64,000 bases of DNA from Rhizobium sp. NZLR1. GTDB lineage: Bacteria > Pseudomonadota > Alphaproteobacteria > Rhizobiales > Rhizobiaceae. This document shows positions 1 through 20,152 of this stretch, piece by piece. The stretch's first letter is position 1; each line of letters opens with the position of its first letter. The notes beneath the pieces were generated by a model that worked only from the letters and a program-made list of their open reading frames with translations, did not search any database and was not told the origin of the DNA. The stretch is taken from contig NZ_CP071632.1 of the NCBI RefSeq assembly GCF_017357385.1, positions 1,245,501-1,309,500 of the forward strand, written 5' to 3'. The position numbers and the translations under genes were made by a program.

Positions 1-407
1 CCGAAGAGCTCAAGATCAGGACGCGCTTGACGCAGTGCAATCAAAAGTTCGCCGTTGCCGCATCCTACATCGAGCACTCTTCCCCGCAAAGGGAGATGCG
101 CGACAACATCCTTAAGGCGCTTTCGATTGACGATGGTCTTTACTCGTCCAAGGAGATTTGCCCGGCTCTGAAATCTATTCGAGAAGGTTCCGTAGTTCGC
201 CGGATACATCAAAGACAGTTGGCTGATGTCGGGTCTCGGATTGAGATAGAAATGACCGCATCCATCGCATCGGACGTATCTGAAGAAGTCTTCACTGCCG
301 TGATATATATAGTCGCGCCCGGTAGCGACAACTGTGCAGCTGTCACTGCCGCAACCGCTGCACGTTGTAGGGGTTGATCTTATATGATTTGTCGCTTGAG
401 AGTTCAT
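1..407 (-). CDS. Class I SAM-dependent methyltransferase with N-terminal zinc ribbon (3' end outside window)
   Basis: Reading the reverse strand from the ATG at 405-407 gives an open frame to the window edge, so only the N-terminal 135 or so residues are present. Near the N-terminus there are two paired-cysteine motifs, CSGCG (about residues 16-20) and CDGCGHFYLNPRP (about 46-58), typical of the zinc-binding head of sugar C-methyltransferase-like proteins. SAM motif I follows as RVLDVGCGNGELLIAL (about residues 107-122). It is the last visible gene of the minus-strand glycan operon, 27 bases after the desaturase stop. The substrate is unknown; such enzymes often modify deoxysugars or other glycan parts. 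The family call is solid, the role is inferred from context. Confidence 0.8.
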   Translation of the reverse strand, partial: MNSQATNHIRSTPTTCSGCGSDSCTVVATGRDYIYHGSEDFFRYVRCDGCGHFYLNPRPDISQLSLMYPANYGTFSNRFQSRANLLGRVKTIVNRKRLKDVVAHLPLRGRVLDVGCGNGELLIALRQARPDLELF

Positions 408-434
408 GTTTGCCGCGTTCAATACCTTTAGACC

Positions 435-1463
435 CTAGAGAGCCAACGCATCTTGAACCGAATCTGAGAAATCATCGTTCTTACGATTTCTCGAGAGTCG
501 GATGAATTTTGCAAAACCACTGCGCTGCAGGCACCTCGGAAAATGCTCGTAGAAACCACCTTTGAGCAGGTGCCTATGAAGTTTTGCGAGATTGTGCTGC
601 GGAATGGCGGGAAAAAGATGGTGTTCGATATGATAGTTGAAATTCGCCTGGTACATAAGCCATTTCTCAAACCAATTAGGGACTGTCGTCCGGGCGAGCG
701 GCATCATGGCCCGCTCCCGTCCGTCCTCGTAAAGTGGATAATCCTCGGGCTGATGCTCCGCGATGGTGCGTATAATATTCAGGGCGATTGCCACGGCAGC
801 AATGGGATAACCCCATAACAGAATGTAGAGATACCATCGTCCCGTGACAATGCAGAGTGCAAACAGCAAGCCGTTGAAGATGATGGTCACCATCGGCGCT
901 AACCAGGAAGGCGACAGCGAGTTACCCGATGCTTTCTTTCGAGCCAGACCACCATATTTGTCAGCCGCCAGCCACACTCCCATGCCACCGCTCAGCGCCT
1001 TTACCATTACCCACGCGAGCGCCCGGAAGCCCTTGATCGGCTCGCGATAGGGGTAACCATCCTCATCCTTTTCTGTACCCAGATGTGCATGGTGGCTCAT
1101 GTGGCGTAGTCGATACGCGCCGACTGACATCCCGACAGGCGCGGCAAAGAATATATCGCACCAGATATCGTTTTTGCGGCGGCTGGAGAAGAGGTGGAAA
1201 TGCGACGCTTCGTGAACCCAAAGCAACATGCCTTGCGTTACCGCGGAGTTAATCAGGAATGGCAGCCATAGCACCCACCAAGGGCCGAAGAGCGCGATCG
1301 CCCAAGAGATAACGATCTGAACCCAGACCATCGTCGTCGCCACGATAATTGCGCGCGGTTGAGGCTGTTTCAACGATTCAAGGAAGCTCTGGTCGACAAG
1401 CCTTCTCGCTACCTTCATGCATTCATTGAACTGCGCATCCATGCAGTGACCAATCCTATCCAT
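435..1463 (-). CDS. Membrane fatty-acid desaturase family protein
   Basis: A 342-residue protein with the histidine boxes of membrane di-iron desaturases and hydroxylases: HEASHFH, then HMSHHAH, and near the C-terminus NYHIEHHLFP. Hydrophobic stretches lie between them, as expected for an enzyme that introduces double bonds or hydroxyls into acyl chains at the inner membrane. The ATG at 1463 has a GAGGG about 8 bases upstream. It sits 20 bases downstream of an FkbM methyltransferase and in the same direction, so it appears co-transcribed with glycan genes. A lipid part of a glycolipid is a reasonable guess for its substrate, but carotenoid ketolase or hydroxylase relatives share the same boxes. 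The exact reaction cannot be read from the sequence. Confidence 0.85.
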   Translation of the reverse strand: MDRIGHCMDAQFNECMKVARRLVDQSFLESLKQPQPRAIIVATTMVWVQIVISWAIALFGPWWVLWLPFLINSAVTQGMLLWVHEASHFHLFSSRRKNDIWCDIFFAAPVGMSVGAYRLRHMSHHAHLGTEKDEDGYPYREPIKGFRALAWVMVKALSGGMGVWLAADKYGGLARKKASGNSLSPSWLAPMVTIIFNGLLFALCIVTGRWYLYILLWGYPIAAVAIALNIIRTIAEHQPEDYPLYEDGRERAMMPLARTTVPNWFEKWLMYQANFNYHIEHHLFPAIPQHNLAKLHRHLLKGGFYEHFPRCLQRSGFAKFIRLSRNRKNDDFSDSVQDALAL

Positions 1464-1483
1464 CCGATAACCCTCGAAGAAAG

Positions 1484-2347
1484 TTATCTACCTTCCTTTG
1501 AGCTCTTGCTCCTAACCAGCACATTCATACCGCCACCTTCCGGTATCATCGCCCGTACTTTGTCGGCGTCTTCAGGCAGCTTCCTGCCAGATGCCATTTC
1601 ATCAATCTCGTAGCCGCCCTGCCAGAGAAGCTCCAACAATCTGTCGAAGTCTCCGGGATTCTCAGCGTAAACATAGGGGGCCAATTCAAGCATTATACGC
1701 GGCTGGAACTTTTTGAGAGTCACCGTCGCCCCAAGTAGAACCGCAAGCTCGTTTCCGTCCACGTCAAGTTTTATGAAATCGACCTTGCCGACCCCAAGAT
1801 CCCGCAATGTTTCGTCCAGCGTGCCGAGCCGCGCGCCCTGTGTCGACATGAGTCGACCGTGGTGTTCGCTATGCAAATCTTCAGCAACTTCGAGCGGCCA
1901 GCTTGAATAGACCGCTTCGGGCATCGCTTCGGATGCACTTGCCATAAGCATCATCTGGTAAGCGTCGATTCGCTGGGCGAGCGTCGGGTTGAGCGAAATA
2001 TTGGCCTTCTGTTTCGCGAATGCATGAGCCGTCGGCTCGAAGGAGATCACCCTGCCGGCTCCGCCCACCAATTGCGCCAGGGGCAACGTATGAGAACCCA
2101 CATTGGCGCCGATGTCGAGGACTATGTCTCCGTCCCCTATCAGCTCTCTATACCTATCGAGCGTTCTGACCTCGAACCCGCCCAATAGGTAGATCGCGAA
2201 ATCAACGCCGTCTCTAAGGTCCAGCGACCAATTTATTCCGCGGCGCTTCGTTATGACGGTTGCGGGTAAGCCAACGCAACCCCGGACCAACAAGACAGCT
2301 TTGGATAGAGAGCGAGCGATCAGGATTTTGTTGCTGGTGGATAACAT
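1484..2347 (-). CDS. FkbM family SAM-dependent methyltransferase
   Basis: The start is placed at the ATG at 2345-2347, giving 287 residues. It lies 16 bases after the preceding stop and has GAGG just upstream; an earlier in-frame ATG at 2440 would overlap the neighbour by 77 bases. SAM motif I is DIVLDIGANVGSHTLPLAQL, followed by VISFEP with the acidic residue that contacts ribose. The FkbM-type motif VDFIKLDVDGNELAVLLGA is in the C-terminal half. FkbM proteins O-methylate sugars and other hydroxyls, often in surface polysaccharide or lipid loci. It forms a tandem pair with the next upstream gene, but the two differ considerably, so they probably act on different positions. Confidence 0.85.
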   Translation of the reverse strand: MLSTSNKILIARSLSKAVLLVRGCVGLPATVITKRRGINWSLDLRDGVDFAIYLLGGFEVRTLDRYRELIGDGDIVLDIGANVGSHTLPLAQLVGGAGRVISFEPTAHAFAKQKANISLNPTLAQRIDAYQMMLMASASEAMPEAVYSSWPLEVAEDLHSEHHGRLMSTQGARLGTLDETLRDLGVGKVDFIKLDVDGNELAVLLGATVTLKKFQPRIMLELAPYVYAENPGDFDRLLELLWQGGYEIDEMASGRKLPEDADKVRAMIPEGGGMNVLVRSKSSKEGR

Positions 2348-2363
2348 TGTCCTCAGGCCGCCT

Positions 2364-3113
2364 CTAAGTGGTTTTGTGATTGGCGGGCGCTCTTCTTGCA
2401 ACGACCAGATTGCAATATTGGCCCGCGTTTTTTGGATCAAGGCTCTCGTAATTGAAAGCAGTGCCAGGTGGATCCGCTATGTTGTGGAACTCGAAATTCA
2501 GCATCTGTAGGAATTTGGTGAGTTCGGCCGGGTTCACGGACGCTTTCGACAAACCATAAGGCCAGAACTCCATGAATACCCGAATGTCGCGATTCTCCCG
2601 CAGGACCCGCTCGGCACCCTGTAGAACGCTCAACTCATATCCCTGAACATCGATTTTGATAAAATCGACCCGCTGCCCTGGCGAAAAGTAATCATCCAGC
2701 TTCACCAATGGGACGTCGATGCTCACTCGCCCATCGCCACTATCAAATGTTCGGTGATCGACATTCAGCTCGGCCGAAACATACAGCCTTGTGGTGCCGC
2801 TGGCCGCTCCTACCGCGGCGTGTTGCAGGGATACATTCGACAAGCCGGTTACCGTTGCTTCAAGCTTTTCGAAGTTCGCCGGCGCCGGCTCGAAGGCATG
2901 GACATGGCCGGTCGTTCCCGTCAGCGCGGAGAACATGCGGGTATATATTCCGATATTTGCACCGATATCTGCGACGATCATGCCCGGCGAAATGAGCTCA
3001 CGCATCAAAGCGCGCTCACGTCGTTCCGAAACTGCCTTCCATACGGAATAGAGAGGATAATACAGGGCATAACAATGCCGATAGAGCCAATCGGCGAGAC
3101 GTAGCAAAACCAT
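2364..3113 (-). CDS. FkbM family SAM-dependent methyltransferase
   Basis: A 249-residue protein. SAM motif I is MIVADIGANIGIYTRMFSAL, followed by HVHAFEPAPANFEKL, and the FkbM signature VDFIKIDVQGYELSVLQGAE appears in the second half. The start at 3113 is only 2 bases after the stop of the upstream methyltransferase (3116), so translation is probably coupled. It is the second of two adjacent FkbM genes in the operon. The substrate is not predictable; O-methylation of a glycan residue is the usual role of the family. The N-terminus has a short hydrophobic, aromatic stretch that could associate with membrane. Confidence 0.85.
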   Translation of the reverse strand: MVLLRLADWLYRHCYALYYPLYSVWKAVSERRERALMRELISPGMIVADIGANIGIYTRMFSALTGTTGHVHAFEPAPANFEKLEATVTGLSNVSLQHAAVGAASGTTRLYVSAELNVDHRTFDSGDGRVSIDVPLVKLDDYFSPGQRVDFIKIDVQGYELSVLQGAERVLRENRDIRVFMEFWPYGLSKASVNPAELTKFLQMLNFEFHNIADPPGTAFNYESLDPKNAGQYCNLVVARRAPANHKTT

Positions 3114-3115
3114 CC

Positions 3116-3898
3116 CTACACCTCTTCTTTTGACGTGAGGCGGACCGTGAAGAATGAGGCGAACACCTTGGGCAGCGCGACGCCTATTGCTCTGTCGAGC
3201 TTGAAGTAAGGCTTATAAGCCCAGCCAGGCACAGGAAACTTCTTCGATATCCCGCCTGTCACCATATAGGAGAGGGAGGTGAAATAGCTGATCCTTGTCT
3301 TCTCAAGGCTATAGCAATCTGCAAGCTCAGCGAGCCAGTCCGGCCGCTGAAAGAAGATCATATGTGGCATAGCCTGATTTGAGGTCGAAAGAGGACCCTG
3401 AACGGTATCCAGAACCGGGCGGCGGATACTGAAATCCACCGGCTCATGATGGAGAAGTTTATACATCGGGTAGGATAGCCAAGACAAATAAGGTTCCGTC
3501 GCATACACCCTGCCGCCCTTTGTGAGCTTGCGTGTCGCCCCGCGAAGGAACGCAAGGGGATCCTTCAGGTGATGCAGAACATTGGTCATCGTAATCACAT
3601 CGACGCTATGGTCCGCGATGTCAGGCAACCCAGCGATCTCGTGGCAATCGAAGACAAAGTCCAAATAGTCTAACTTCAGCACATCGGAGGTGATGACATT
3701 CGGTAGGAAGCGCTTGAGAGGCGACGTTCCGCTTCCGATTTCCAGAACGGTATTCGTGGCAATATCCGGTTCCTGTCGAAACATCTCCTGGTAGAGCTCG
3801 CCATACCAATGCATCAGGTTGGGATTTGCGCTTAGCCGCTCGCGATTTGCCAGCGTTTGAGCAAGATCGGCGTCATAGAGAGTGCTTTCGATTTCCAT
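3116..3898 (-). CDS. Class I SAM-dependent methyltransferase
   Basis: The start is placed at the ATG at 3896-3898, which begins 2 bases after the glycosyltransferase stop at 3901 and gives 260 residues; a longer frame to 3967 would run into that gene. The core reads NTVLEIGSGTSPLKRFLP (motif I), then an acidic strand, then VDVITMTNVLHHLKDPLAFL and a GGRVYATEPY strand, the usual order of a type-11 methyltransferase. The C-terminal third is less conserved and probably gives substrate specificity. The tight packing with genes on both sides argues for one transcript. It is the central one of the catalytic methyltransferases in this cluster; its substrate is unknown. Confidence 0.8.
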   Translation of the reverse strand: MEIESTLYDADLAQTLANRERLSANPNLMHWYGELYQEMFRQEPDIATNTVLEIGSGTSPLKRFLPNVITSDVLKLDYLDFVFDCHEIAGLPDIADHSVDVITMTNVLHHLKDPLAFLRGATRKLTKGGRVYATEPYLSWLSYPMYKLLHHEPVDFSIRRPVLDTVQGPLSTSNQAMPHMIFFQRPDWLAELADCYSLEKTRISYFTSLSYMVTGGISKKFPVPGWAYKPYFKLDRAIGVALPKVFASFFTVRLTSKEEV

Positions 3899-3900
3899 CG

Positions 3901-5232
3901 TCAGAGAAACTTTATTCGTCTTGCCGCAAAAGCCAGCATAGCCAACAGAATGGAACCATGGCGCCAACGCGAGATGTTCGTTTCACCGTAGAGTCTTTCT
4001 CGATAACCGATCGGAACCTCGACGATCTTAAGGCCCATCCGCGCGGCGCCGAAGATCAGGTCGAAATCACCAAAGGGATCGAAATCACCGAAGTAGGATC
4101 TGTTTGCCTGAAGTTTGAGATAATTGGAGCGGCTGATCACCTTGGTTCCGCATAGGGTGTCTTTGTATCTCTGGCCAAGAACGAAGGAGAAAGCCAATGC
4201 GAAAAACTTGTTGCCCAGGAGATTGAAGAAACGCATCGCCTCCTTTTCCATGGGATAGACCAAGCGAGTTCCGTTGATGAACTCGCCTTTCCCATCCTTG
4301 ATGGCGTTGTAGAATTTCGGCAAATCCTCGGGCGGGACCGTCATGTCCGCGTCAAGAATCATCAAGACTTCCTTTGTGGCCAGCGAAAAACCCTTCCTGA
4401 CGGCGTCGCCTTTACCCTTACCATCCTGTTGGGCAATCAGGATGGTGCGTTCGCCGCCATAGCGCTGTTGCGCTTCTTGGATCGCCTTCCACGTTGCGTC
4501 GGTTGAATTGCCTTCGACAAAAATGAGTTCATCATCCGGCCCCATAACCGGCAACCGTTTGACAATATCCTCGATATTTCCTGCCTCGTTTCTCGCTGGA
4601 ACTACAATTGACACCGACGGCTCGGTTTTCGATGCGGCATCGCCGACCGGCCTCGCAATCGCGATGTTGAGAAGGCAGAGAGTTCGAAAAAGCGGAAGAG
4701 GAGCAAGGCAACGGTTAACAAAGCCACTGATAAGTGGGATGTAAACCGGGATTAGAATCTTCTGGTCCAGTCGTATTAATTCGAAGTCTTCGAGCGTCAG
4801 AAGATTCTCGACGTCTTCATGGGCAAGCCAATTCGATTCAGGAACCCGCCGGCGCAGGCCGAGCTTAGATGCGAGAGTTGCAAGCGGCCGCCACATGCTG
4901 CTGTAATAGGTAAGAACAAGGCGTGTCTCAGGTGAACACAATGCACGTGCCTGAGCGAACATGCTCTGTATGTCTCGTTCGTAATGGATGAGGCCGCTGA
5001 TGACCAGATAATCAGGTTTGGTGTCAGCGACTTCTTCGATCTTGACGACCTTGTGCTCGTCAAACTCTTTCACAGGTTCAGTCGGTTGCGTTATCGAGCG
5101 AAACGTTATCTTGCCCTGAGGAAATTTACCAATCAGCAGAGGCGTCGTCGGATCGATCTCGACCACGGAATTCTGGCCCAAGACAAAGAGGCCAATGTAC
5201 TTTCTCAATTGAGAATAGAAATAGTCCCGCAT
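3901..5232 (-). CDS. Family 2 glycosyltransferase (dolichyl-phosphate-mannose-synthase-like) fused to a degenerate methyltransferase domain
   Basis: 443 residues in two parts. From about residue 205 onward it is a GT2 enzyme of the DPM1/GtrB type: VSIVVPARNEAGNIEDIV, the acidic VEGNSTDATW, and the metal-binding VLMILDADMTVPPEDL, ending in a short hydrophobic segment. Such enzymes move a sugar from a nucleotide donor to polyprenyl phosphate on the cytoplasmic face. The first 200 residues resemble the type-11 methyltransferase domain often fused in front of this GT2, including NWLAHEDVENLL and a LAPLP segment. The glycine-rich SAM loop is missing, however: the strand reads VVEIDPTTPLLIG where EIGCGxG is expected. 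It is 3 bases from the upstream flippase-like gene. Confidence 0.8.
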   Translation of the reverse strand: MRDYFYSQLRKYIGLFVLGQNSVVEIDPTTPLLIGKFPQGKITFRSITQPTEPVKEFDEHKVVKIEEVADTKPDYLVISGLIHYERDIQSMFAQARALCSPETRLVLTYYSSMWRPLATLASKLGLRRRVPESNWLAHEDVENLLTLEDFELIRLDQKILIPVYIPLISGFVNRCLAPLPLFRTLCLLNIAIARPVGDAASKTEPSVSIVVPARNEAGNIEDIVKRLPVMGPDDELIFVEGNSTDATWKAIQEAQQRYGGERTILIAQQDGKGKGDAVRKGFSLATKEVLMILDADMTVPPEDLPKFYNAIKDGKGEFINGTRLVYPMEKEAMRFFNLLGNKFFALAFSFVLGQRYKDTLCGTKVISRSNYLKLQANRSYFGDFDPFGDFDLIFGAARMGLKIVEVPIGYRERLYGETNISRWRHGSILLAMLAFAARRIKFL

Positions 5233-5235
5233 AAG

Positions 5236-6378
5236 TTACCTCGGCGCCAAGCGGTTCAAGCGCCAATGTCCCAGGATGAGGGCTGCAGGCACGACGTACA
5301 CCACAAAAAAGAGAAAATGAACGGCCGTCGCCAGGAGTAACCCCTCTGAGGGTGAACGCCCTAGCAATACGAATGCCGAAACGACGGATGCATGGAAGGT
5401 GCCGACTCCGGATGGTGCAGCTGGGATCATCAGACCCAATCCCCCGGCAAACAACACGAATAACGATTCTTGATAACTCAGCTCGACGCCGACAAACCGG
5501 GCGACGAAGATATACGCAAGGGCGTATGCCGAAAGCCACAAAACCAGCGTCAGAAAGGCCGGAACGATGGTCACGGACAGAGATAAGCTTCGTGCGGAAT
5601 TTCCGATAAAATGAATAACGTGACGGTCAAAGAAATCTTGCAGTCGCAGGAGACCGAAGACGGGCCGCAATATCGGGACAAGCCGATTGCCGAAATTCCT
5701 TACCAGAACTGCCGATAGAAATATCCCAACTATTGCACCAACCATGATGACCAACAGAGCATTTCGGTACTCGGAATTCAATGTATGGCTCAGTAAAACC
5801 AAAGAAAATATGCCGACGGAAATGATCGTCACCAAGTCAACCATCTTTTCGACCAGAAGCCTACCAAGAGCGTCTGCGTAGGGGACGGTCGCGACAACTC
5901 GGCTGTAATGTACACGCAAGAGGTCTCCACCTCTCGCAGGAAGGAACATGTTGGCGCCCAAGCCGAGTAGGGAGGCCATGAGGGACGTTCCGTAACCGAT
6001 CTTGCCATCCAACAACAGGCGCCACCGCACCGCATAACCTACCGCGATACCAAAGGTAACAAGCATAAACCAAAGGAGCGATGTGACGGATATTCCGCTA
6101 CGAAAAATCCGGATGGCTTCCTCCCAATCCACCGCCTTTAGCAAGAATATCAGGAGGAAAATGCTTATTGCCGAGGCTATAAGCATCTGCAGGCGTTGAT
6201 ATGCAGGAGCCGCCGCCGCAGCTTTGCTCCATGAGTTATACAACCTCTCACGCATCCGCCAGTGACTTGCGGCTTCAACAGCCGAACTGGGTAGAGCGTT
6301 TTTGACGGGACGTTTGAGCATAAAAGGCCTGCGTTTGAATCGATCGCAAGTGGAAGTCGAGGGTGAAGTCGACCGCAT
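5236..6378 (-). CDS. Flippase-like integral membrane protein (lysylphosphatidylglycerol-synthase transmembrane family, UPF0104)
   Basis: 380 residues, of which the first 70 are basic and cytoplasmic-looking; after that come about seven or eight hydrophobic helices. The helix SLMASLLGLGANMFLPARGG followed by DLLRVHYSR is the typical signature of this family, as is GLMIPAAPSGVGTFHASV near the C-terminus. Members are proposed lipid or lipid-linked-sugar translocases. It is the first gene of the minus-strand operon and sits directly upstream of a polyprenyl-phosphate glycosyltransferase, fitting a role in flipping the product. An alternative start at 6321 (residue 20) is possible. The function is inferred, the family is fairly sure. 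Confidence 0.8.
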   Translation of the reverse strand: MRSTSPSTSTCDRFKRRPFMLKRPVKNALPSSAVEAASHWRMRERLYNSWSKAAAAAPAYQRLQMLIASAISIFLLIFLLKAVDWEEAIRIFRSGISVTSLLWFMLVTFGIAVGYAVRWRLLLDGKIGYGTSLMASLLGLGANMFLPARGGDLLRVHYSRVVATVPYADALGRLLVEKMVDLVTIISVGIFSLVLLSHTLNSEYRNALLVIMVGAIVGIFLSAVLVRNFGNRLVPILRPVFGLLRLQDFFDRHVIHFIGNSARSLSLSVTIVPAFLTLVLWLSAYALAYIFVARFVGVELSYQESLFVLFAGGLGLMIPAAPSGVGTFHASVVSAFVLLGRSPSEGLLLATAVHFLFFVVYVVPAALILGHWRLNRLAPR

Positions 6379-6578
6379 ACAGCACTAACGGGCGGCCCGC
6401 TACCAATAGTTTCGTCGCGGCGCCACCTCAATTTATGGTACCCACAAGTCTTCTATTTCCTAGTCGCACGCAGCCTGGAATCAGCGTGATTTAGCGCTTG
6501 CTTACGACCGCGGTTGATTTAGAACGGCGCTCCGCAAAGGCTCGATATCCGGAAATTTCTAGAGCGCGGGAAATGAGA

Positions 6579-8264
6579 ATGAGTGATCAGCTTCAAGCCA
6601 GGCCGAAACTGAATAGTTTGCTTTTACTGACGATTGCTGTTCTCTTGACCCACTGGATGGCCTTCTTCAATGAAGGAATATTTGCTGAGGATGCCGGTTT
6701 ATTTCCAACATTGATCTACAATGATTGGATCGCCATCGCGGACATGTTTTCTTCAGCAGGGGTGCCGGTATTTACGTACTATGTTTGGCCGATGGCCTTC
6801 GTTGGGAACGTTTTGCTTTTAAAATCCTTTGTCATAATTGGGGTCTACTTCATTGCGATCTTCTCCTACCTCCTAGCTTCAAAGTCTGGATATTTTTCGG
6901 AGCGCGAGTCTTTGGTGCTCGCAATATTCACGCACTTGTTGCCGCTCCCCACGATCACGGTTATTTTTACATATTCGATATACTTTAATGCCTATGCCAT
7001 TTTTCTATTGGCTACATATTTATTCCTGTCAATCGAATGGATGCGCGGAAGGAGCCACTATCTCCTCCGCGGACTGGCAATTTGCATTTACTTCATTGCA
7101 TTCACGCTGAATTCCTTGCTGGTGCTCTATGCGGCTGGTTTCGTCCTCGTTTATGCGGTGTGGCTGAGAAGGACAGGGCGCCGAGTTCGCAATGCGCGGG
7201 AATTGGTCTCGACATTTTCATCATTCTGCCTTGCACGAGCGGATTTCACCATTCTGCCCTTCGTGTACTGGGTTTGTAAGGCAATTTTCTACCCTAGGTA
7301 CGGATTATACGATAACTACAATGGCTTTACCCTAAATGTTGAAAGCATTGCGGAGAATTCCTATCGATTTATATTTAATGGCACGATCTTTCCTTTGGCA
7401 AGGAGCGTTTATGATTGGAATGTTTATCTCTACTTGGGAGCTGCGGTCTGTTCGATCCTTTTTGTCGCGTGCTTTGTGTTCGCGAACAGGGGAGATGCTC
7501 GAAACGCTCAGCTAAATGAACGCTCTAGCGACGGTTTCAAAATTATCGGCTTTGGGATATTTTTACTGCTGTGTGGGACGGTCCCTTATATACTTGTTGG
7601 CAAGAGCCCCGCACCCGGCGTGTTGATGAGAAACGCGATGCTTATGCCGCTGCCGATAAGCGTGGTGGGTATCGGGATATGGCGAGTTATCAAATTCAGA
7701 TCGACCAACCTTCAAAGCCATAGGGTTGCAATCGTGGTGTTTGTATCACTTCTCACCGTCTTCATCGGCCGGTGGTGGGAGAGTTACGCGGCATGGCAAG
7801 CACGGGCAGCGAAGGATCTGGCTGTCTCTCAATATCTCGCTGATCATCCTGAGTGGTCTGCCTATTCGGTTTACTGGATAGTCGACAAGCTTCCGCTGTC
7901 TGGCGAGGTTTCGGAGTATGGGTTCGCTGACTATACCTCTAAATTCCGCATTCTTTGGGGCGGACAAACCAGGATGGCATTTACGCCCGCCCACATCTTG
8001 TTTTTTGGCGTTGATACAAAGCCGGGCGTTAGGCCCGTCCACTCCAATCTTCCCGCTCGAATCGCTTTTTTCTGCAATTCTTGGGCCAGCGCAAAAGATA
8101 TTGATTTGAGCGGCCCACAAGCGGAACTGGAAATTACAGCCACGCAAAGATCATGGAACGATGCTTCCGTCGCATCTGGATACCTCTATTACCGCTTCAT
8201 CGAGCCTAGTGGCTTGAAAAATTATCTGGCTGAACTGGTAAATGTAACGCTGCGGGCGCTTTGA
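6579..8264 (+). CDS. Polytopic membrane protein, candidate GT-C type sugar transferase
   Basis: I do not recognise this as a named family. The start at 6579 is chosen because GGGAA lies 6 bases before it; frames from 6498 or 6573 are also open. It gives 561 residues with about ten hydrophobic helices in the first two thirds and a soluble C-terminal domain of about 120 residues. The first periplasmic loop contains NEGIFAEDAGLFP, an acidic pair after helix 1 as found in GT-C transferases that take sugars from polyprenyl phosphate. The gene is clearly AT-richer than the window average and divergent from the glycan operon. GtrC/GtrS-like modification of a surface glycan is an inference from layout, not from a recognised domain. 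Confidence 0.6.
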   Translation: MSDQLQARPKLNSLLLLTIAVLLTHWMAFFNEGIFAEDAGLFPTLIYNDWIAIADMFSSAGVPVFTYYVWPMAFVGNVLLLKSFVIIGVYFIAIFSYLLASKSGYFSERESLVLAIFTHLLPLPTITVIFTYSIYFNAYAIFLLATYLFLSIEWMRGRSHYLLRGLAICIYFIAFTLNSLLVLYAAGFVLVYAVWLRRTGRRVRNARELVSTFSSFCLARADFTILPFVYWVCKAIFYPRYGLYDNYNGFTLNVESIAENSYRFIFNGTIFPLARSVYDWNVYLYLGAAVCSILFVACFVFANRGDARNAQLNERSSDGFKIIGFGIFLLLCGTVPYILVGKSPAPGVLMRNAMLMPLPISVVGIGIWRVIKFRSTNLQSHRVAIVVFVSLLTVFIGRWWESYAAWQARAAKDLAVSQYLADHPEWSAYSVYWIVDKLPLSGEVSEYGFADYTSKFRILWGGQTRMAFTPAHILFFGVDTKPGVRPVHSNLPARIAFFCNSWASAKDIDLSGPQAELEITATQRSWNDASVASGYLYYRFIEPSGLKNYLAELVNVTLRAL

Positions 8265-8492
8265 GGCTTATGGCATCACCAAAGCCGTGGCTGGCTCAAT
8301 TGGCCCTGAACCAAAGGCAGCAGTCCACGGGCGCCGTCGCGACTGCCACGGGCGAACTCAGGTGCCCGTCTTCGCGGAGACCGCTGAGTTAATCCGCGAT
8401 CTTGAGACGGCAGATCGAGGCTGTCGGTCGCTGGGTTGATCGACCCGCAAAATCCGGGGGCGCGTGCACCCGCCATTGCTAACCCATCATAT

Positions 8493-8520
8493 GGCCTCGC
8501 ATCCGCGGGGCCTTTTTCTT
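8493..8520 (+). terminator. Intrinsic terminator or attenuator ahead of the tail-fibre gene
   Basis: GGCCTCGC and GCGGGGCC pair around an ATCC loop (one T-G pair), followed by TTTTTCTT. It lies between the AT-rich membrane protein gene and the phage module, only 13 bases before the tail-fibre ATG. It may end the upstream transcript or act as a phage attenuator. Confidence 0.6.
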
Positions 8521-8532
8521 TGGAGATGATGA

Positions 8533-9573
8533 ATGCCCAGAAACCCATCAACCGGCGTCTATTCCAAACCCGCCGGCACGACACCCTCCGTTGGCCAGGT
8601 CATCGACCCGGCGCCGTGGAACGCGCTGACCACCGACCTCGGCAACGAAATCACCAATTCGCTGCCGCGCGACGGTTCGGCGCCGATGATCGCACCCCTC
8701 AAAGCCGCAGGCGGAACCCTCTCCGCACCGGGCGTCGGCTTCGCCTCGACCCCGCAGACCGGCCTCTATCTGAAAGGCGGTGGCCTGCTCGGTTTTGCCC
8801 AGAACGGCGTTGAGGTCGCGTTCGATCAGGATCTGGTCTATGCGGTGAAGTCAGGCGATTACACCGCGCTCGCATCCGACGACAACGCCGTCCATCGCTT
8901 TACCGCGGCAGCCACGCTCACCCTGACCGCAGCGGCAACGCTCGGCGCAAACTGGCACTATTGCGTCATGGCCGATGGCGGGGATGTGACGATCGATCCG
9001 AACGGTTCGGAGACGATCGACGGCGCGGCCAAGCTTATCCTCAAGGACGGTTACAGCGTCGAAATCATTTGTTCCGGGGCCGCTTTCTTCACCAACAAGC
9101 TCTTCGCCAGGATCCAGAGTAAAGCCGACAGTTCGGCGGTCGGCGATTTCATTGTCGGGCTCACCCTTTCCAACAACGTCGGCAGCCCGAATACGCATAT
9201 CGATTTTGCTGCAGGATCTGCCAGGACGGGATCGAGCTTCGTTTCCAGCGCAACGTCATTGACGAAGCGAGTGACGGGAACATTTGCGGCCGGCACCGGT
9301 GCTGGCGGCCTTGACGCGGGCGCCATTGCAGCGAACGCGACCTACTTTGCCTATGCCCTGCGCAAGGACGCAGACCTGTCTTTCGACATTGTTCTCTCGA
9401 CCTCGGCAACCATCGGCGGCGTCACCACAACGCTGCTCTCGCGCAACCTCTACATCCAGCTCGCCATGTCGGCGGCAACGGGGCTTTTCGCCGTGGCGGC
9501 GATCGTTGCCCGCATCTTCGTCCAGCAGAAAATCTCAGGAGAATTGAATGGCAAACCGCCTGCAGAAGGGTAG
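8533..9573 (+). CDS. Phage tail fibre-like structural protein
   Basis: A 346-residue protein with GGAGA upstream of the ATG. The N-terminus reads GVYSKPAGTTPSVGQVID and then SLPRDGSAPMIAPLKAAGG, a recurrent pattern of phage tail fibre and tail-spike N-terminal regions where the protein attaches to the tail. The rest is Ala/Gly/Thr-rich with short beta repeats, as in trimeric fibres, and a hydrophobic C-terminal segment. Its 3' end overlaps the endolysin start by 26 bases, a compact phage-like arrangement. No tail-assembly chaperone or receptor-binding domain was recognised. It opens a five- or six-gene phage block whose base composition matches the chromosome, suggesting long residence. Confidence 0.65.
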   Translation: MPRNPSTGVYSKPAGTTPSVGQVIDPAPWNALTTDLGNEITNSLPRDGSAPMIAPLKAAGGTLSAPGVGFASTPQTGLYLKGGGLLGFAQNGVEVAFDQDLVYAVKSGDYTALASDDNAVHRFTAAATLTLTAAATLGANWHYCVMADGGDVTIDPNGSETIDGAAKLILKDGYSVEIICSGAAFFTNKLFARIQSKADSSAVGDFIVGLTLSNNVGSPNTHIDFAAGSARTGSSFVSSATSLTKRVTGTFAAGTGAGGLDAGAIAANATYFAYALRKDADLSFDIVLSTSATIGGVTTTLLSRNLYIQLAMSAATGLFAVAAIVARIFVQQKISGELNGKPPAEG

Positions 9574-10012
9574 TGCCGCCGCGGCCATGGCTGTGGCGCT
9601 TGTCGGCTCGTTCGAGGGATTGCGCCAGAATGCCTATCCCGATCCGGCCACACAGGGACAGCCGTGGACGATCTGCTATGGCAGCACCAATGGCGTGAAG
9701 CCTGGCGATCACAAGACGGTGGAGCAATGCAAGGCGCTCTTGGCGCTGGAGCTCAAGACCTATGCGCGCGGCGTCGAAAGCTGCGTGCGCGTGCCGCTGC
9801 CGGATGCCCGTTTCGTGGCGCTGACCTCGTTTGCCTATAATGTCGGCGTCAAGGCGGCTTGCGGCTCGAGCGCGGTCAAGCTGATCAACCAGGGCAGGGC
9901 GGCCGAGGGCTGCGAGGCGCTTTTGAAGTGGAACCGCGCCTCCGGCATCACCTTTCCCGGCCTGACGCGGCGCCGGCAGAAGGAACGCCAATTCTGCCTG
10001 GAGGGCATCTGA
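9548..10012 (+). CDS. Phage endolysin (lysozyme, GH24), SAR type
   Basis: 154 residues with an AGGAG before the ATG. The catalytic region reads SFEGLRQNAYPDPATQGQ and then WTICYGST, giving the Glu/Asp/Thr triad of T4/R21-like muramidases that cut the glycan strands of peptidoglycan. ALTSFAYNVG and the C-terminal GLTRRRQKE motif are also family signatures. The N-terminus (SAAAAMAVALVGS) is weakly hydrophobic and rich in Ala and Gly, directly before the catalytic Glu, the hallmark of signal-anchor-release endolysins. Six cysteines fit disulfide switching after release. The TGA stop overlaps the ATG of the spanin by one base. Confidence 0.85.
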   Translation: MANRLQKGSAAAAMAVALVGSFEGLRQNAYPDPATQGQPWTICYGSTNGVKPGDHKTVEQCKALLALELKTYARGVESCVRVPLPDARFVALTSFAYNVGVKAACGSSAVKLINQGRAAEGCEALLKWNRASGITFPGLTRRRQKERQFCLEGI

Positions 10013-10446
10013 TGTTCTCCCTGCTCGACACGCTCAAGATGGGCGCCGGCATCGCCGCCGGCCTGATGCTCTATCACCTCTATGCCGTTTCGATCGGCTA
10101 TCCCTCGGCGGCAAGGCAGGCGCGGGCCGGCTATATCATGCTGGCCGAAAAGGGGGCAGCCGATGCGAGAGCCGCCGAGATGGAGCGGCAGCGTGACGCC
10201 GCTGCCGAGGCCACCGAAGAGCACCGCAAGCGCCTGGCAGCCGCCGAAGCGTCAGAGCAGGCGGCCAGAGACACACTCGAAATCGAGATCCAATCCTATG
10301 AGCTTCAGCTTTCGGAAAAGAACCGCGCTTGCGCTGTCACTGCTGTTGATCGTCAGTGGCTGCTCCGCCACGGTGCGGCTGAACAAGGTGGCGGTGATCA
10401 AGGGGCAGGCGGCGGCCGGCATCGCGCTGCCGCCCTTGCCCGATGA
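10012..10446 (+). CDS. Rz-like inner-membrane spanin
   Basis: 144 residues. An N-terminal hydrophobic helix (LKMGAGIAAGLMLYHLYAV) is followed by a long Ala/Glu/Arg-rich heptad region (EMERQRDAAAEATEEHRKRL and on) that should form a periplasmic coiled coil. This is the layout of i-spanins, which link the inner membrane to an outer-membrane lipoprotein and fuse the two at lysis. The start overlaps the endolysin stop as TGATG. Its 3' third shares DNA with the o-spanin gene in another frame. Sequence conservation in this family is low, so the call rests on position, topology and the nested partner. Confidence 0.75.
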   Translation: MFSLLDTLKMGAGIAAGLMLYHLYAVSIGYPSAARQARAGYIMLAEKGAADARAAEMERQRDAAAEATEEHRKRLAAAEASEQAARDTLEIEIQSYELQLSEKNRACAVTAVDRQWLLRHGAAEQGGGDQGAGGGRHRAAALAR

Positions 10447-10606
10447 TCTCCGCAGACAGGAGGCGCATGCGCCTGTTGTGGAAGGCGAGCCGGTCATCGC
10501 CATCCTCGCCCGCGAGCGCCAGGCGCTCGACCGCGCCAATGCCCGCCAGGGCCGCACCACTCGCTTCTATGACGACCTCACCAGCAGATTTGGAACACGC
10601 CGATGA
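10298..10606 (+). CDS. Rz1-like outer-membrane lipoprotein spanin, nested in Rz
   Basis: The ATG at 10298 starts inside the Rz-like gene in a different frame and runs 102 residues. The N-terminus is basic (SFRKRT), then hydrophobic, then the lipobox LLIVSGCS, so a mature lipoprotein starting at Cys is expected. A proline-containing segment (IALPPLPDD) follows, as in Rz1 proteins. The frame is open upstream of 10298 but that part makes no sense as protein. The overlap of 149 bases with the i-spanin mirrors lambda Rz/Rz1. The stop overlaps the next ATG by four bases (ATGA). Confidence 0.75.
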   Translation: MSFSFRKRTALALSLLLIVSGCSATVRLNKVAVIKGQAAAGIALPPLPDDLRRQEAHAPVVEGEPVIAILARERQALDRANARQGRTTRFYDDLTSRFGTRR

Positions 10607-12444
10607 TGAATGCCATTTCGCTTGCCCTTGTTAATCCGATGCTGAGTGGCGGGGGCGGGGGCAGCGCAGACCCCGATCGCTACATGTTCTTCGCAACCCG
10701 CAATCGCATGCCGTCGGGCACGATCGTCACCGCCGCATCCGGCACGAATTACCTGTGCAGCAAGATCGTCGTCAACACGCCGCAATATAAGACCAGAACC
10801 TTCCGCTTCCACTTGTCCGGCTTCGCCTCGACGGAAGGCGGCAACGCGCCGCAGGAGACGGTCGTCACCGGCACGATCGGCACGCCAGGCAATTCTGTGG
10901 TCGCCGATGCGATGTTCATCCGGGTCGCCGGTGTCTTTTACCAATGCACCTTCGCCGGTCTGAACACGCTGACGGTTGCCGATCAGACGAACGGCGCCTG
11001 GACCGATGAGCTGACCATTCCCGATGTCGACCCGGAAAGCGAAATCGAAATCTGGCTGTTCTATCATACCGGCGTCGGCGACAAGATCTGGCCCGTCTAC
11101 CGCATCCAGAAGCATCGCGGCGAGCGCGTCTGGGGCGCCGGCGATCTCGCCACCCTCTTGGCCTTCAAGGACACCCCGCTTGCCGACAGCACGGCGGCAC
11201 TCGATACCAATTACGCCACGCAGACGCAGCCGCAATATTACGGCCCCGACTTCATGGTCGCCAAGGGCGATTGGGACGGAAGGCCGGTCGCGCTTGCTAT
11301 CGTCGACAGCCTGGGTGAGGCGCGCCAGCAGTTTTCCGCGGCTGCCGACGCGCGCGGCAATCTCGGCTGGTTTCGCCGCTGGCTCGACCAGGACGGCGGC
11401 ATCGGCCGCATTCCCTTTCTGATGGTCGGCATGCCGGGATCCGGCTCCGTGCGTGAGCTAACCGGCAGCGGTGCGGCGATCGCGACCCGGCGCTGGGCCA
11501 TTCTCGATGAGATCGCCACCTTCAACAGCGGCAAGAAGCCGTTCACCGTCATCGCCAACCAGATGGGCCAGAACGACACGGCCGCCACCTACGCCGTCTT
11601 CTTCACCACCAACTACAGAAGCCTGATCACAAGGCTTCGGGCGCGCTATCCCGGCGTCAGGATCGTCGCCTTCCCGCCGCTCGGCCGCACCGTTTCCACC
11701 CGTACGGTGACCTTGACGTCGGTCGGCACAGTCGTAACCGCAACGATCGCATCCGGCATCAGTGGCCTGGCGACCGGCCAGACGGTTTCGATCTCCGGCG
11801 CTGCGCAGACGGAGTACAACGGCAATGTGGTGATCACGGTCACCGGGCCGACCACCTTCACCTTTAATTTCGCCGGATCGGCGACGTCGCCGGCAACGGG
11901 CTCGATCAGCGCCAACGACCTCTATGCGAGAGCGGAGTATCAAAACGTCTCGGCCAACAACAGCTGGCCGGCGGACGGCACGGATGCCTCCGGCAAATGG
12001 CGCCTTCGCAACGACATTCTCGCCAAGACGAGCGGCTGCTGCGACGATGCGATCGACACCTATGCGGCGTGGGTTTCCGGCGTCCGGGATGGCGTCTGGC
12101 CTGGTATGCTGGAGCTGCCGAGCACCACGGTGACGGTGCAGGCGGGAACGGACGGTGTCGCGAACTACACGACGATCGAGGTTGCGGATGCAAGCATTTT
12201 CGGGCCGGAACAAGAGATCAACACCTATGCCGGACCGGATGGCATTGCCCGCCTGTCGACGACCTCGATCGGCAGCATCTCCGGCAACACGATCACGATC
12301 TCGATCCCGCGCGCCACGGTGCTGCCGGTCGGCTCCATTGTCCGCCCGAGCGTCACGCCGGATGGCGTTCATCCCTATGGCGCCGTGATCGACCGTATCT
12401 CCGGCAGCATTCCCCAATCCGAAAAGCTGAAATTTTATCCCTAA
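10603..12444 (+). CDS. Phage tail-associated SGNH/GDSL hydrolase-like protein with inserted beta domains
   Basis: 613 residues. The first 225 are an unrecognised beta-rich region. Then SGNH blocks appear: AIVDSLGE (block I, Ser236), GMPGSGSVR (II), IANQMGQND (III, Asn324) and DGVHPYG (V, Asp587 and His590), the catalytic set of GDSL esterases. Between blocks III and V lie about 260 residues instead of the usual short stretch, including a Thr/Val-rich Ig-like repeat (about 366-437) and another beta segment (about 500-570). In phages such enzymes deacetylate host surface polysaccharide. The ATG overlaps the o-spanin stop; a second ATG follows at 10606. A Gly run near residue 17 may mark a hinge. 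Confidence 0.65.
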   Translation: MMNAISLALVNPMLSGGGGGSADPDRYMFFATRNRMPSGTIVTAASGTNYLCSKIVVNTPQYKTRTFRFHLSGFASTEGGNAPQETVVTGTIGTPGNSVVADAMFIRVAGVFYQCTFAGLNTLTVADQTNGAWTDELTIPDVDPESEIEIWLFYHTGVGDKIWPVYRIQKHRGERVWGAGDLATLLAFKDTPLADSTAALDTNYATQTQPQYYGPDFMVAKGDWDGRPVALAIVDSLGEARQQFSAAADARGNLGWFRRWLDQDGGIGRIPFLMVGMPGSGSVRELTGSGAAIATRRWAILDEIATFNSGKKPFTVIANQMGQNDTAATYAVFFTTNYRSLITRLRARYPGVRIVAFPPLGRTVSTRTVTLTSVGTVVTATIASGISGLATGQTVSISGAAQTEYNGNVVITVTGPTTFTFNFAGSATSPATGSISANDLYARAEYQNVSANNSWPADGTDASGKWRLRNDILAKTSGCCDDAIDTYAAWVSGVRDGVWPGMLELPSTTVTVQAGTDGVANYTTIEVADASIFGPEQEINTYAGPDGIARLSTTSIGSISGNTITISIPRATVLPVGSIVRPSVTPDGVHPYGAVIDRISGSIPQSEKLKFYP

Positions 12445-12466
12445 GGCATAGCGAGCGGCTACAGAG

Positions 12467-12835
12467 ATGACCTCCAATGACGATATTCTCCGCGCTCTCG
12501 GGCGCGTCGAGGGAAGGCTGACCGGCATCGAGGAAAACGTCGCACTTCTGCGCAATGAGGTCAGCGATGAAAAGGCCAATGCCCACGATAGCCGCGCCGT
12601 GATCCACACCCGCCTCGACGAACAGGCAAGGCAGATCGCAAATCTCGATACAAGGGTGGCGATCAGCGGCGGTGTCGACGCGCAGATCCGCGAGGAGATC
12701 AAGATCCTCAAGGGGACCGTCGAGAAGAACCAGGAGGCGGTGGCGCCGGCGCTGGAAGAATGGAAACGGATGAAATCGATCGGGTACGGGATATCGGGGC
12801 TGATCGCCTTTGCCGGGCTGACGATCGGGGGATGA
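12467..12835 (+). CDS. Coiled-coil protein with C-terminal membrane helix, phage-type (XhlA-like?)
   Basis: 122 residues, 22 bases after the SGNH gene and on the same strand. Residues 1-95 are charged with heptad-like spacing (ILRALGRVEGRLTGIEENVA and on), and the last 20 (IGYGISGLIAFAGLTIGG) form a hydrophobic helix. This is the topology of XhlA-like haemolysin or holin-accessory proteins, and similar proteins of unknown function occur in rhizobial prophages. No true holin was seen in the block, so this may be the membrane component of lysis; a SAR endolysin needs only a pinholin. The assignment is tentative. Confidence 0.55.
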   Translation: MTSNDDILRALGRVEGRLTGIEENVALLRNEVSDEKANAHDSRAVIHTRLDEQARQIANLDTRVAISGGVDAQIREEIKILKGTVEKNQEAVAPALEEWKRMKSIGYGISGLIAFAGLTIGG

Positions 12836-12891
12836 TTGCCTATGCCAGCGACGGCGCGGTGGCAGCGTTAAGGCATTGGTTGAAGATCAGT

Positions 12892-12905
12892 TGAGCAATT
12901 GCTCA
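12892..12905. repeat. Perfect 14-bp palindrome
   Basis: TGAGCAATTGCTCA is a perfect dyad in the 186-base gap between the phage block and the next small gene, 117 bases ahead of that gene's start. It could be a dimer-binding operator or a chance palindrome; nothing nearby identifies a regulator. Confidence 0.35.
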
Positions 12906-13021
12906 CGTATTCCGTGCTGCTGCCATTTTGTTGCCGACAACGGAGCAAGTAAAACAAATTTTAGACTTTGCTAACGAACAAATCTGTTCCGTGGTGGTTT
13001 TCCTCTCAGGAGGAAATAGTC

Positions 13022-18106: not shown

Positions 18107-19612
18107 TCAGACCGCGGCAAATGGCACGGCGACAAAAGTCTTGATACCGTCGCGTTCGACGAGCAGCAGCACCGATTTGCGGCCGGCCTTGCCGGCGTCG
18201 GCAATCGCGGCCTTGACGTCGCGGCTGTTGTGAACCAGCTTATCGTTGACCGAGACGATGACATCGCCCGACTGGATGCCGGCGGCAGCGGCCGACTTGT
18301 CGGGATCGACGCTGGCGACCACCGCGCCGCTGACGGCGCGCGGCAGGTTGAGCTGCTGGCGCATGTCGACTGTCAGGTCGGCAAGTCCGATCCCGAGGCT
18401 CGGCTGGCCGCTGCTCTCGCCCTTGTTGTCCGAGCTTTCGGCCGCAGCCTGCTTCTGGCCGTCCTCATTGCCGCCGACAGTGACGTTGAGATCGATCGTC
18501 TTGCCGTCGCGCCAGATGCCAAGGGATTTTTTGGCGCCCGGCGAAAGGTCGGCCACCAGCCGCGACAGATCCTTCGGCGTCTTGACGGTCTCGCCGCCGA
18601 CCGAGGTGACGATATCGCCCGGCTTAACGCCGGCCTGCGCCGCCGGCGTATCGGCGGTAACGGCGGCAACCAGCGCCCCGCCTGTCTTGTCGAGGCCGAC
18701 GGCATCGGCGACGTCTTTCGTCACCGGCTGGATCTGCACGCCGAGATAGCCGTGATCGATCGAGCCGTTTTTCTGCAGCTTGGCGACGATCGCCTTGGCT
18801 TCATCCGAGGGGATGGCGAAGCCGACGCCGACGCTGCCGCCGTTCGGCGAATAGATCGCAGTGTTGATGCCGACGACATTGCCGCTGCGGTCGACGAGCG
18901 GTCCGCCGGAATTGCCATGGTTGATCGGCGCATCGATCTGGATGAAATCGTCATAGGGCCCGCTGTGCAGGTCGCGGCCGCGCGCCGAGACGATGCCTGC
19001 CGTCACCGTCGTGCCGATGCCGAAGGGGTTGCCGATCGCCAGGATCTGGTCGCCGAGCTTCAACTGGTCGGAATCGCCCCAGGCAATCGTCTGCAGGGGC
19101 CTGGGCGCCTCGATCTTCAAGACGGCGACATCGGATTTCGGGTCGGTGCCGATCAGCTTGGCCGGCAGTTCCGTGCCGTCGTCCAGCGTCACCTTGATGT
19201 CGATGGCATTGTCGATGACATGGTTGTTGGTGACGATCACGCCGTCCGGGCTGATGATGAAGCCGGAGCCGAGCGCCATCGCCTGCTGGGAAGGCCGGTT
19301 TTTCGGTGCCTGGTGCGGCAGCGGGATGCCTTGATCCTCGAAGAACTGGCGGAACTGCTCGTCCATCGGCGAGTCCTGTTGGTCGGCGCTGACGTCGGTC
19401 GCCTTCATTGTCGTGGTGATGGTGACGACGGCAGGTTTGTCGGCATCGACGATGGACGCGAAGGAGCCGCTCGCGGCCAAGACGCCGCCGCTATCGGCTG
19501 GCGCGGCAATGGCGTTCGAGCCGTTGATGGTGAAGGGCAGACAGGCCGCGCCGGCGATGATGGCCGCCCCGACCAGCGCTGCAGCGCGGTGTTTGCTTAA
19601 GATGTGTGACAT
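18107..19612 (-). CDS. Periplasmic Do/DegP-like serine protease with two PDZ domains
   Basis: 501 residues from the ATG at 19612, which has AAGGGA upstream and begins a signal peptide (SHILSKHRAAALVGAAIIAG). The trypsin-like domain shows the triad: His in VTNNHVID, Asp in TDPKSDVAVLKI, Ser in HGNSGGPL. Two PDZ domains follow, the first with GYLGVQIQPVTKDVADAVGL and the second starting near SLGIGLADLTVDMRQQLNL. The family degrades or refolds damaged envelope proteins in the periplasm. Length and order match Deg proteases of Rhizobiales, of which several paralogs usually exist, so no gene symbol is given. It is convergent with the small gene at 17533 and divergent from a LacI regulator. Confidence 0.92.
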   Translation of the reverse strand: MSHILSKHRAAALVGAAIIAGAACLPFTINGSNAIAAPADSGGVLAASGSFASIVDADKPAVVTITTTMKATDVSADQQDSPMDEQFRQFFEDQGIPLPHQAPKNRPSQQAMALGSGFIISPDGVIVTNNHVIDNAIDIKVTLDDGTELPAKLIGTDPKSDVAVLKIEAPRPLQTIAWGDSDQLKLGDQILAIGNPFGIGTTVTAGIVSARGRDLHSGPYDDFIQIDAPINHGNSGGPLVDRSGNVVGINTAIYSPNGGSVGVGFAIPSDEAKAIVAKLQKNGSIDHGYLGVQIQPVTKDVADAVGLDKTGGALVAAVTADTPAAQAGVKPGDIVTSVGGETVKTPKDLSRLVADLSPGAKKSLGIWRDGKTIDLNVTVGGNEDGQKQAAAESSDNKGESSGQPSLGIGLADLTVDMRQQLNLPRAVSGAVVASVDPDKSAAAAGIQSGDVIVSVNDKLVHNSRDVKAAIADAGKAGRKSVLLLVERDGIKTFVAVPFAAV

Positions 19613-20152
19613 GGTGATGGTCCCTTGCGAGAGTGTTGGCTTTGGATGGCGTCGTGGTTCCACGTCTTGGGACCTGGCGTCGGATGGCGTTTGGCGCCAA
19701 TGCCTCCGATCGCAGCGCAGTCGTTGGGGTGGCGACCGGGACAATCGAAGAATTCGCGCTCGGGATTCATATGATCGCGGCCGGCGGATTTACAAATTAA
19801 ATATTGATCATGTTTATATTGCCGATTTGTAAGACATTACTGGAATTTAATCTTTGTGCCGACGGTTTTTGAACCGGGTGCCACACGCTGGGTCTTCCGG
19901 CCGAGGTTTGGCTTCGCAGCGCGTTCTCCCCAGCGATTTTCATTCGAAAATAAATGGACTTATTCCCGAATCCGTTGATCCGATCGCCGCATGCGCCCGT
20001 AATTTTGCCGACAGATGATCATGCTGCTGTTTCTGGAAATTGTCTGCCCGAAACTTGTTGCGAATATAAAATGTTAGTAGACTCTAAATTATTTCTTCTG
20101 CAGAAAGTATAGACTGCGAATCGGCGGGTTTCGCGGCAGCATATGAGGGGCG
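19613..20152. other. Divergent intergenic region between protease and LacI genes
   Basis: 540 bases, AT-rich towards the right side. It must hold promoters for both genes, but I find no convincing consensus boxes. A GGAAC occurs upstream of the protease but lacks the CGTT partner, so I do not call an EcfG promoter here. No open frame with a ribosome site was found. Confidence 0.45.

Follow-up and report, generated by a model that had tools for sequence, protein, structure and literature searches.

A likely surface-glycan modification cassette carried by a fixed, decayed podovirus-like prophage in Rhizobium

What is a tightly packed run of glycosyltransferase, flippase-like and methyltransferase genes doing among the virion genes of a prophage? 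The question is raised by the start of a 64,000-nucleotide stretch of Rhizobium sp. NZLR1 (hereafter the window, G000:C1:1245501-1309500; G-numbers denote genomes and L-numbers fetched DNA stretches), which holds an eight-gene cassette. Seven genes, FLIP, MTGT2, MT1, FkbM1, FkbM2, DES and MT2, run along the minus strand, separated by 2 to about 20 bp except where FkbM1 and FkbM2 overlap, and the eighth, TM588, is divergent on the plus strand (Table 1). Within a podovirus-like prophage, the cassette occupies the interval from the late virion genes to the tail-fibre gene, and we consider it likely to be the surface-glycan modification cargo of that prophage, now fixed and decayed, with the O-antigen of lipopolysaccharide (LPS) as the most likely target. 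In terms of known systems it is most likely a Gtr-like O-antigen modification with added methylation on a fixed phage relic, and it would probably alter the bacterial sugar coat. Gene content, gene order, families, predicted folds, prophage embedding, conservation and purifying selection were all computed.

A first-pass annotation of the same DNA had proposed that the block encodes a flippase, a lipid-linked sugar synthase and a transferase, the three parts of Gtr-type glycan modification, together with methyltransferases and a desaturase. Every gene that it named is present on open-reading-frame (ORF) and Pfam evidence, all eight being open frames in NZLR1 and only TM588 lacking a Pfam assignment, and the three-part reading is supported by the fold of the GT2 domain, the predicted GT-C fold of TM588 and the PF03706/TIGR00374 matches of FLIP. 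The GT2 domain begins at about residue 206 of MTGT2, and the top 12 entries among its fold matches are all DPM synthase, ArnC or GtrB. For TM588, the 41 rows that its predicted fold returned ahead of a drop in score are GT-C-fold chains; three of them are glycosylphosphatidylinositol (GPI)-transamidase entries, whose chain U we take to be a GT-C-fold chain. FLIP has about seven hydrophobic stretches by hydropathy. DES carries, by eye, the histidine boxes HEASH, RHMSHH and HIEHH and scores 70.6 bits against the guanitoxin hydroxylase GntB, far under the cut-off of 380; a PDB sequence search with DES and TM588 gave no match. As we picture it, the GT2 domain of MTGT2 would load a sugar onto polyprenyl phosphate in the cytoplasm, FLIP would move the lipid-linked sugar to the periplasmic face, and TM588, as a GT-C-type transferase, would pass it to the O-antigen built by a separate chromosomal locus; MT1, FkbM1, FkbM2 and, where present, MT2 may methylate the added or terminal sugar, DES may oxidise or desaturate part of the product, and the outer sugar coat would change as it does in lysogenic conversion of the P22 type. 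The substrate, the direction of flipping, the acceptor and any effect on phages or plants are what we infer from the genes here.

The prophage itself extends well beyond the cassette. The feature had been given as 1..8264, and its genes stand; its extent does not, as the embedding prophage starts some 15 kb to the left of the window and ends near 12.8 kb within it. In L007, the stretch left of the window, lie a terminase small subunit (phrog_1482), TerL (phrog_2, 84.5 bits), a portal (phrog_12082, 616 bits), a major head protein (phrog_9953, 437 bits) and a tail protein (phrog_6013), and the cassette interval is bounded by a 690-residue protein with endolysin and tape-measure PHROG matches on one side and the fibre on the other, the embedding among virion genes that marks lysogenic-conversion cargo. 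Judged by its major head protein, the prophage has its nearest isolated relatives in Bradyrhizobium phage ppBjS10J-1 (62% identity) and Myxococcus phage Mx8 (52%). The GC content is 49-55% in 1-8000 vs 59-65% in 8001-13000, and again 55-58% at 14-18 kb in the window profile; the earlier suggestion that this AT-richer block was acquired agrees with the prophage context and, for the pair G000-G002 only, with a lower synonymous divergence (dS) in the cassette than around it. No near match to the DNA of 1-8264 was found among 72,556 plasmids.

Does such a relic still do anything? The portal frame (L007:3778-5871, G000:C1 about 1232.3-1234.4 kb) is interrupted by an in-frame stop, leaving 557 codons vs 708-723 in five relatives, and the 346-residue fibre joins residues 1-303 of the usual fibre to the 50 C-terminal residues of a holin-family ORF (phrog_1356, 8.2e-7, for the corresponding ORF in G112), a fusion that came along with the loss of one of the two cargo slots described below, slot 2. 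With both genes damaged in this way, NZLR1 probably makes no phage particle, yet the cassette stays open. The same two lesions would suit a cassette that is a dead passenger of a decaying prophage, an account that we find very improbable given that all eight genes are open and under purifying selection across relatives: the ratio of nonsynonymous to synonymous divergence (dN/dS) is 0.07-0.20 for the cassette genes (4-10 genomes). The virion genes are under purifying selection too: leaving aside the esterase (0.38, two esterase types mixed), core genes range over 0.01-0.21, with TerL at 0.109 and the major head protein at 0.010 for a dS of 0.24 (six genomes). The major head protein (L007:7342-8316) is 99-100% identical in five relatives, one match being partial, an unusually strong constraint for such a dS. 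Between G000 and G002, dS is 0.06-0.11 in the cassette vs 0.14-0.31 from TerS to P393 and 0.26 in the flanking protease gene DegP, so by this sequence measure the cassette is younger than its site, for that pair only. In G000 against G028, some cassette genes have diverged as much as the core or more (FkbM1 dS 0.68, MT1 0.43; TerL 0.41). Congruence of the cassette genes with DegP is likewise mixed (n=7): FLIP gives r 0.80 (p 0.0014), MTGT2 0.33 (p 0.17), MT1 0.10, FkbM1 0.15 and FkbM2 0.15.

Table 1. Cassette genes and right-hand prophage and flanking features, in window coordinates; SAM, S-adenosylmethionine
Feature	Position	Strand	Description
MT2	1..422 in window; whole gene G000:C1:1244945-1245922 (L007 16445-17422)	-	Class I SAM methyltransferase, zinc ribbon by eye; crosses the left window edge, with a further 556 bp to the left and the C-terminal part outside the window
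DES	435..1463	-	Fatty-acid-desaturase superfamily, PF00487 141.2 bits
FkbM2	1484..2440	-	FkbM-family methyltransferase, PF05050, TIGR01444; start may be internal
FkbM1	2364..3113	-	FkbM-family methyltransferase, PF05050, TIGR01444
MT1	3116..3898	-	Class I SAM methyltransferase, PF13489/PF08241; start taken from a 260-residue relative, listed ORF 3116-3967
MTGT2	3901..5232	-	Degenerate methyltransferase-like domain fused to polyprenyl-phosphate-type GT2; phrog_841, GtrB-like
FLIP	5236..6378	-	UPF0104 / LPG_synthase_TM, flippase-like; PF03706 122.5 bits, TIGR00374 above cut-off
TM588	6579..8264	+	Polytopic, predicted GT-C fold; listed ORF 6498-8264, start 6579 from relatives of mostly 561 residues
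Tail fibre	8533..9573	+	Weak PHROG tail-fibre matches; right border of cassette slot
Endolysin	9548..10012	+	phrog_7, 180.6 bits
Lysophospholipase L1-like esterase	10603..12444	+	phrog_8480, 412.1 bits
P122	12467..12835	+	Last conserved prophage gene, function unknown
DegP-like protease	18107..19744	-	Trypsin and two PDZ domains; right chromosomal flank of prophage site

How fixed is the prophage? In a sample of 148 Rhizobium genomes (thresholds TerL E<=1e-60, DegP E<=1e-150, MTGT2 E<=1e-60), TerL occurs in 40 and DegP in 133, and 30 of the 40 TerL-bearing genomes hold the prophage at one chromosomal site: TerL lies at most 40 kb from DegP on the same contig in 29 (tables read by hand), and the thirtieth, G008, was placed via the LacI and LysR genes of that flank. 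Four fixed-site genomes (G003, G030, G034, G057) have a partial or split TerL. Distances between TerL sequences follow those of DegP (Mantel r 0.65, p 1e-4, 18 genomes); the same holds for P122 (0.78) and P393 (0.53), while endolysin (0.28) and fibre (0.23) track less. A further 20 genomes were inspected at the DegP site, 17 without a terminase match and three with one elsewhere (G001, G031, G036): ten hold remnant phage genes, G068 has the element split over contigs, G036 retains DLH and DegP and yielded no phage gene, and eight show neither DLH nor phage genes, some of their stretches being short. In G017 and G107, some 1.1-1.5 kb separates the outer genes of the element from DLH and DegP, so little that no room is left for an early region. 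As to an integrase, none of the nine PF00589 matches of G000, the one recombinase family searched, falls inside the element, and none was seen inside the fixed copies of 22 relatives among the matches listed (to about E 1e-11; G001, G027 and G036 excluded). Copies elsewhere do have one, 6-10 kb upstream of TerL in G077, G107, G112 and, with a partial TerL, G035, and about 27 kb downstream of TerL in G066. Four such off-site related prophages (G077:C1:2.04 Mb, G107:C1:1.69 Mb, G112:C1:3.05 Mb and G066:C70), each with an integrase within about 30 kb, had no recognised glycan-type cargo. The fixed prophage is apparently an old, immobile remnant. According to the consulted part of PMC6117902, one prophage occupies a tRNA-Leu gene of three strains; because no tRNA was found in the window or in the 38 kb left of it, that prophage is probably another element, and other prophages in the same paper could be the present one. 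The consulted parts of PMC11409702 and PMC11080155 do not settle whether the element has already been described, and no description by title or abstract start appeared in the open-licence literature among the matches listed.

Around the fibre gene the order TerS-TerL-portal-head-tail-P393-[slot 1]-fibre-[slot 2]-endolysin-esterase-P122 recurs, and the two slots are where cargo differs. Slot ORFs were clustered, and one or two members of each cluster were run against Pfam to check the labels; glycan-type genes are Pfam-supported in 26 of 27 scored fixed-site copies vs none of eight copies elsewhere, and the 27th (G008) bears a glycan label by eye only. Two of the copies elsewhere, G036 and G091, could be scored in slot 1 only; G056 and G027x were counted as fixed by their right flank, TerL not being on their contigs. 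Copies that were cut, decayed or without a fibre anchor were omitted (G084, G027a, G104, G062, G032b, G003, G030, G068), G110 yielded no stretch, and slots were unfetched for G022, G031, G034, G073 and the second G035 copy. The cargo families comprise hexapeptide acetyltransferase, acyltransferase-3 (two clusters), methyltransferases, a glycosyltransferase (PF13524), DegT, WbqC, an FAD oxidoreductase, GT2 and an SMR-like 120-residue protein just under the cut-off. A methyltransferase identity given by eye to cargo clusters 59 and 37 was dropped, Pfam having returned no match, which is why the glycan label of G008 is by eye only. A second cassette recurs in slot 2 of L157, L158, L164, L172 and L187 (G112, G014, G010, G069, G057), with a TM588-related polytopic protein, GT2, DegT aminotransferase, WbqC, methyltransferases and an FAD oxidoreductase, and in G112 also the SMR-like small protein.

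Because relatives carry different sugar-coat genes at the same spot, the remnant looks like a docking site for swaps of surface features. A bolder proposal, which we hold tentatively and at rather less than even odds, is that this virion module, fixed and without integrase or early genes, is a platform for surface-antigen exchange whose two fibre-flanking slots receive cassettes swapped by recombination in the conserved virion genes. The exchanged sets would be GT2, flippase and GT-C with methyltransferases; a second with its own GT2, SMR-like protein, aminotransferase and TM588-related GT-C; and acyl- and acetyltransferases. Species with intact copies may still make a particle (R. ecuadorense, G077, G107 and G028 are among those whose copies look intact), which would couple a kin-targeting particle to coat-changing genes. 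A coupling of fibre type to cassette type was also tried, as fibre C-terminal distance against the Jaccard distance of the cargo in 25 copies, five of them mobile; it came out unclear (Mantel r 0.13, p 0.043), and the commonest fibre type pairs with different cassettes. If the platform idea is true, a fixed relic stocking exchangeable coat genes would account for the spread of surface variation between species while the O-antigen locus stays in place, and natural pairs with the same site and a different cassette exist. Rhizobial O-antigen influences symbiosis and phage sensitivity.

Where else does the cluster occur? MTGT2 is found in 13 of the 148 genomes: in the prophage slot in nine (G000, G002, G017, G027, G028, G056, G068, G077, G107), in O-antigen loci in three (G020:C2:803-813 kb, G080:C1:261-271 kb, G032:C413:30-40 kb) and elsewhere in one (G049). 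The closest relatives of the GT2 fall within Rhizobium (R. ecuadorense 95%, R. phaseoli 93%), two IMG/VR contigs show the slot form, and among 50,697 records of isolated phages 15 match MTGT2, none over 80% of its length. Conserved gene order had been named as a check on the cluster: FLIP, MTGT2, MT1, FkbM1 and FkbM2 are present in order in 13/13 (split over two contigs in G068), and FLIP-MTGT2-MT1 and one FkbM gene keep their order in a Burkholderia; the expectation fell short for DES and MT2, as told below. TM588 is present in G000, G002, G028, G107 and G027, in the last as a relative in line after FkbM2 and not divergent. The O-antigen loci with cluster copies have Wzt-type transporter and GDP-mannose dehydratase genes, and between FkbM2 and DES a polytopic protein of 526-527 residues and unknown family; TM588 has no detected sequence relation to it or to the polytopic proteins of the Burkholderia and Alcaligenaceae forms. 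NZLR1 has its own O-antigen locus (L200, G000:C1:836001-856000) with an ABC-2 permease, a Wzt-type ATPase and a GDP-mannose dehydratase by Pfam, and NeuB-like and zinc-ribbon methyltransferase genes by eye; no second full-length MTGT2 copy was found in its genome. Because the host O-antigen locus is separate and cluster copies lie in O-antigen loci, the O-antigen is the likeliest acceptor.

Several observations weigh against a Gtr-type modification system. Foldseek on TM588 gave no E below 0.001, with unrelated transporters among the next rows, and TM588 is missing from four of the nine element-borne copies (G077, G017, G056, G068). The two hydrophobic stretches of MTGT2 precede the GT2 domain and none follows it. 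FLIP is not of the GtrA type, its sole Pfam match at E 0.001 being PF03706 and not PF04138, which we take to be the GtrA-family small flippase; substrates of UPF0104 proteins vary, so FLIP is a flippase candidate. Nor did FLIP hold up as a constant partner of the fused GT2, since PF03706 occurs in only 4 of 96 immediate neighbours outside Rhizobium (96 of 111 neighbours from 79 fused-GT2 loci were scored with Pfam, 15 short ones being left out); a purpose-built FLIP profile, which was too narrow, matched just three loci. DES and full-length MT2 accompany 9 of the 13 clusters, both being missing in G027 and G049, and G077 and G017 having no DES and an MT2 fragment; since they are missing or broken in four of 13 copies, gene content indicates that they are optional. 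Finally, ordinary O-antigen loci contain the cluster too, and there it need not be a tailoring system. From this last point it is a short step to regarding the cluster as a fragment moved out of a main-chain O-antigen locus, one that makes a portion of the repeat unit or the chain terminus, and its place in the prophage as incidental. Membership of the same cluster in the loci of G020, G080 and G032 speaks for that account, as does the frequency of the methyltransferase family PF08241 next to the fused GT2 elsewhere, where no neighbour family is commoner (25 of the 96 neighbours); we judge it unlikely in view of the prophage form, which lacks the 526-residue protein and has the unrelated TM588 at the other end, and of the glycan-type genes in the same slots of nearly all scored fixed-site prophages. 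A target other than O-antigen, such as a lipid-linked glycolipid or a different polymer (exopolysaccharide or membrane lipid), in which case DES would have a fatty acyl chain as its substrate, draws on the lipid desaturases in the DES superfamily and on a target that cannot be read from sequence; it strikes us as quite improbable beside the cluster copies in loci with Wzt-type transporter and GDP-mannose dehydratase genes and the acyltransferase-3 and hexapeptide acetyltransferase cargo of sister prophages, both families being common polysaccharide decorators.

The fused protein at the centre of the preferred reading, O-antigen modification, has a peculiarity of its own. Its N-terminus is a methyltransferase-like domain with a degenerate SAM motif: in an alignment of 97 rows, where several rows are the same locus taken from two collections, a motif like E-I-G-C-G-x-G stands in most of the remoter relatives, VVEIDP or VVEVDP replaces it in all 21 rows at least 67% identical to the window protein (Rhizobium, Burkholderia, Alcaligenaceae, Nodosilinea), and the glycine motif is also absent from seven more rows at 54-60% identity. 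The GT2 D-x-D is kept in 97/97 rows. Given its degenerate SAM motif, the fused methyltransferase-like domain is probably not catalytic here. A GT2 whose fused methyltransferase domain is conserved yet apparently dead, next to methyltransferases encoded separately, is a further point of interest in the cassette. In the G020 O-antigen locus, L119:1241-4093 encodes a 950-residue protein with methyltransferase and GT2 domains; it is reminiscent of wreM of R. etli, which is bifunctional.

How does the whole compare with known systems? Homologues of TerL, portal, major head protein, TailA, TailB, P393 and fibre stand in the same relative order in ppBjS10J-1, which differs in having genes annotated for recombination and regulation and none annotated as glycan cargo, many of its genes being hypothetical. 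With gene transfer agents and tailocins, as commonly defined, the prophage shares a fixed, apparently integrase-less and vertically inherited set of phage-derived genes, and its virion genes combine vertical inheritance with purifying selection as those of a gene transfer agent do; it differs from a tailocin by its capsid and terminase genes (terminase and major head protein are present), and in NZLR1 the portal is broken. O-methylated O-antigen sugars occur in the genus Rhizobium, and in R. etli CE3 wre genes methylate the O-antigen; the prophage cassette, by comparison, lies outside the host O-antigen locus, and the R. etli methylfucose genes offer a possible lead. From gtrABC of P22-like phages (Salmonella, Shigella) the cassette differs by a UPF0104 protein in place of a GtrA-family flippase, a GT2 fused to an apparently dead methyltransferase domain, a GT-C gene divergent from FLIP where gtrA-gtrB-gtrC form a single operon, the added methyltransferases and desaturase, and a prophage without a detected integrase. 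What the two have in common, going by the consulted part of PMC3688519, is a phage-borne flippase candidate, a GtrB-like polyprenyl-phosphate GT2 and, as the variable part, a transferase, here polytopic with a predicted GT-C fold.

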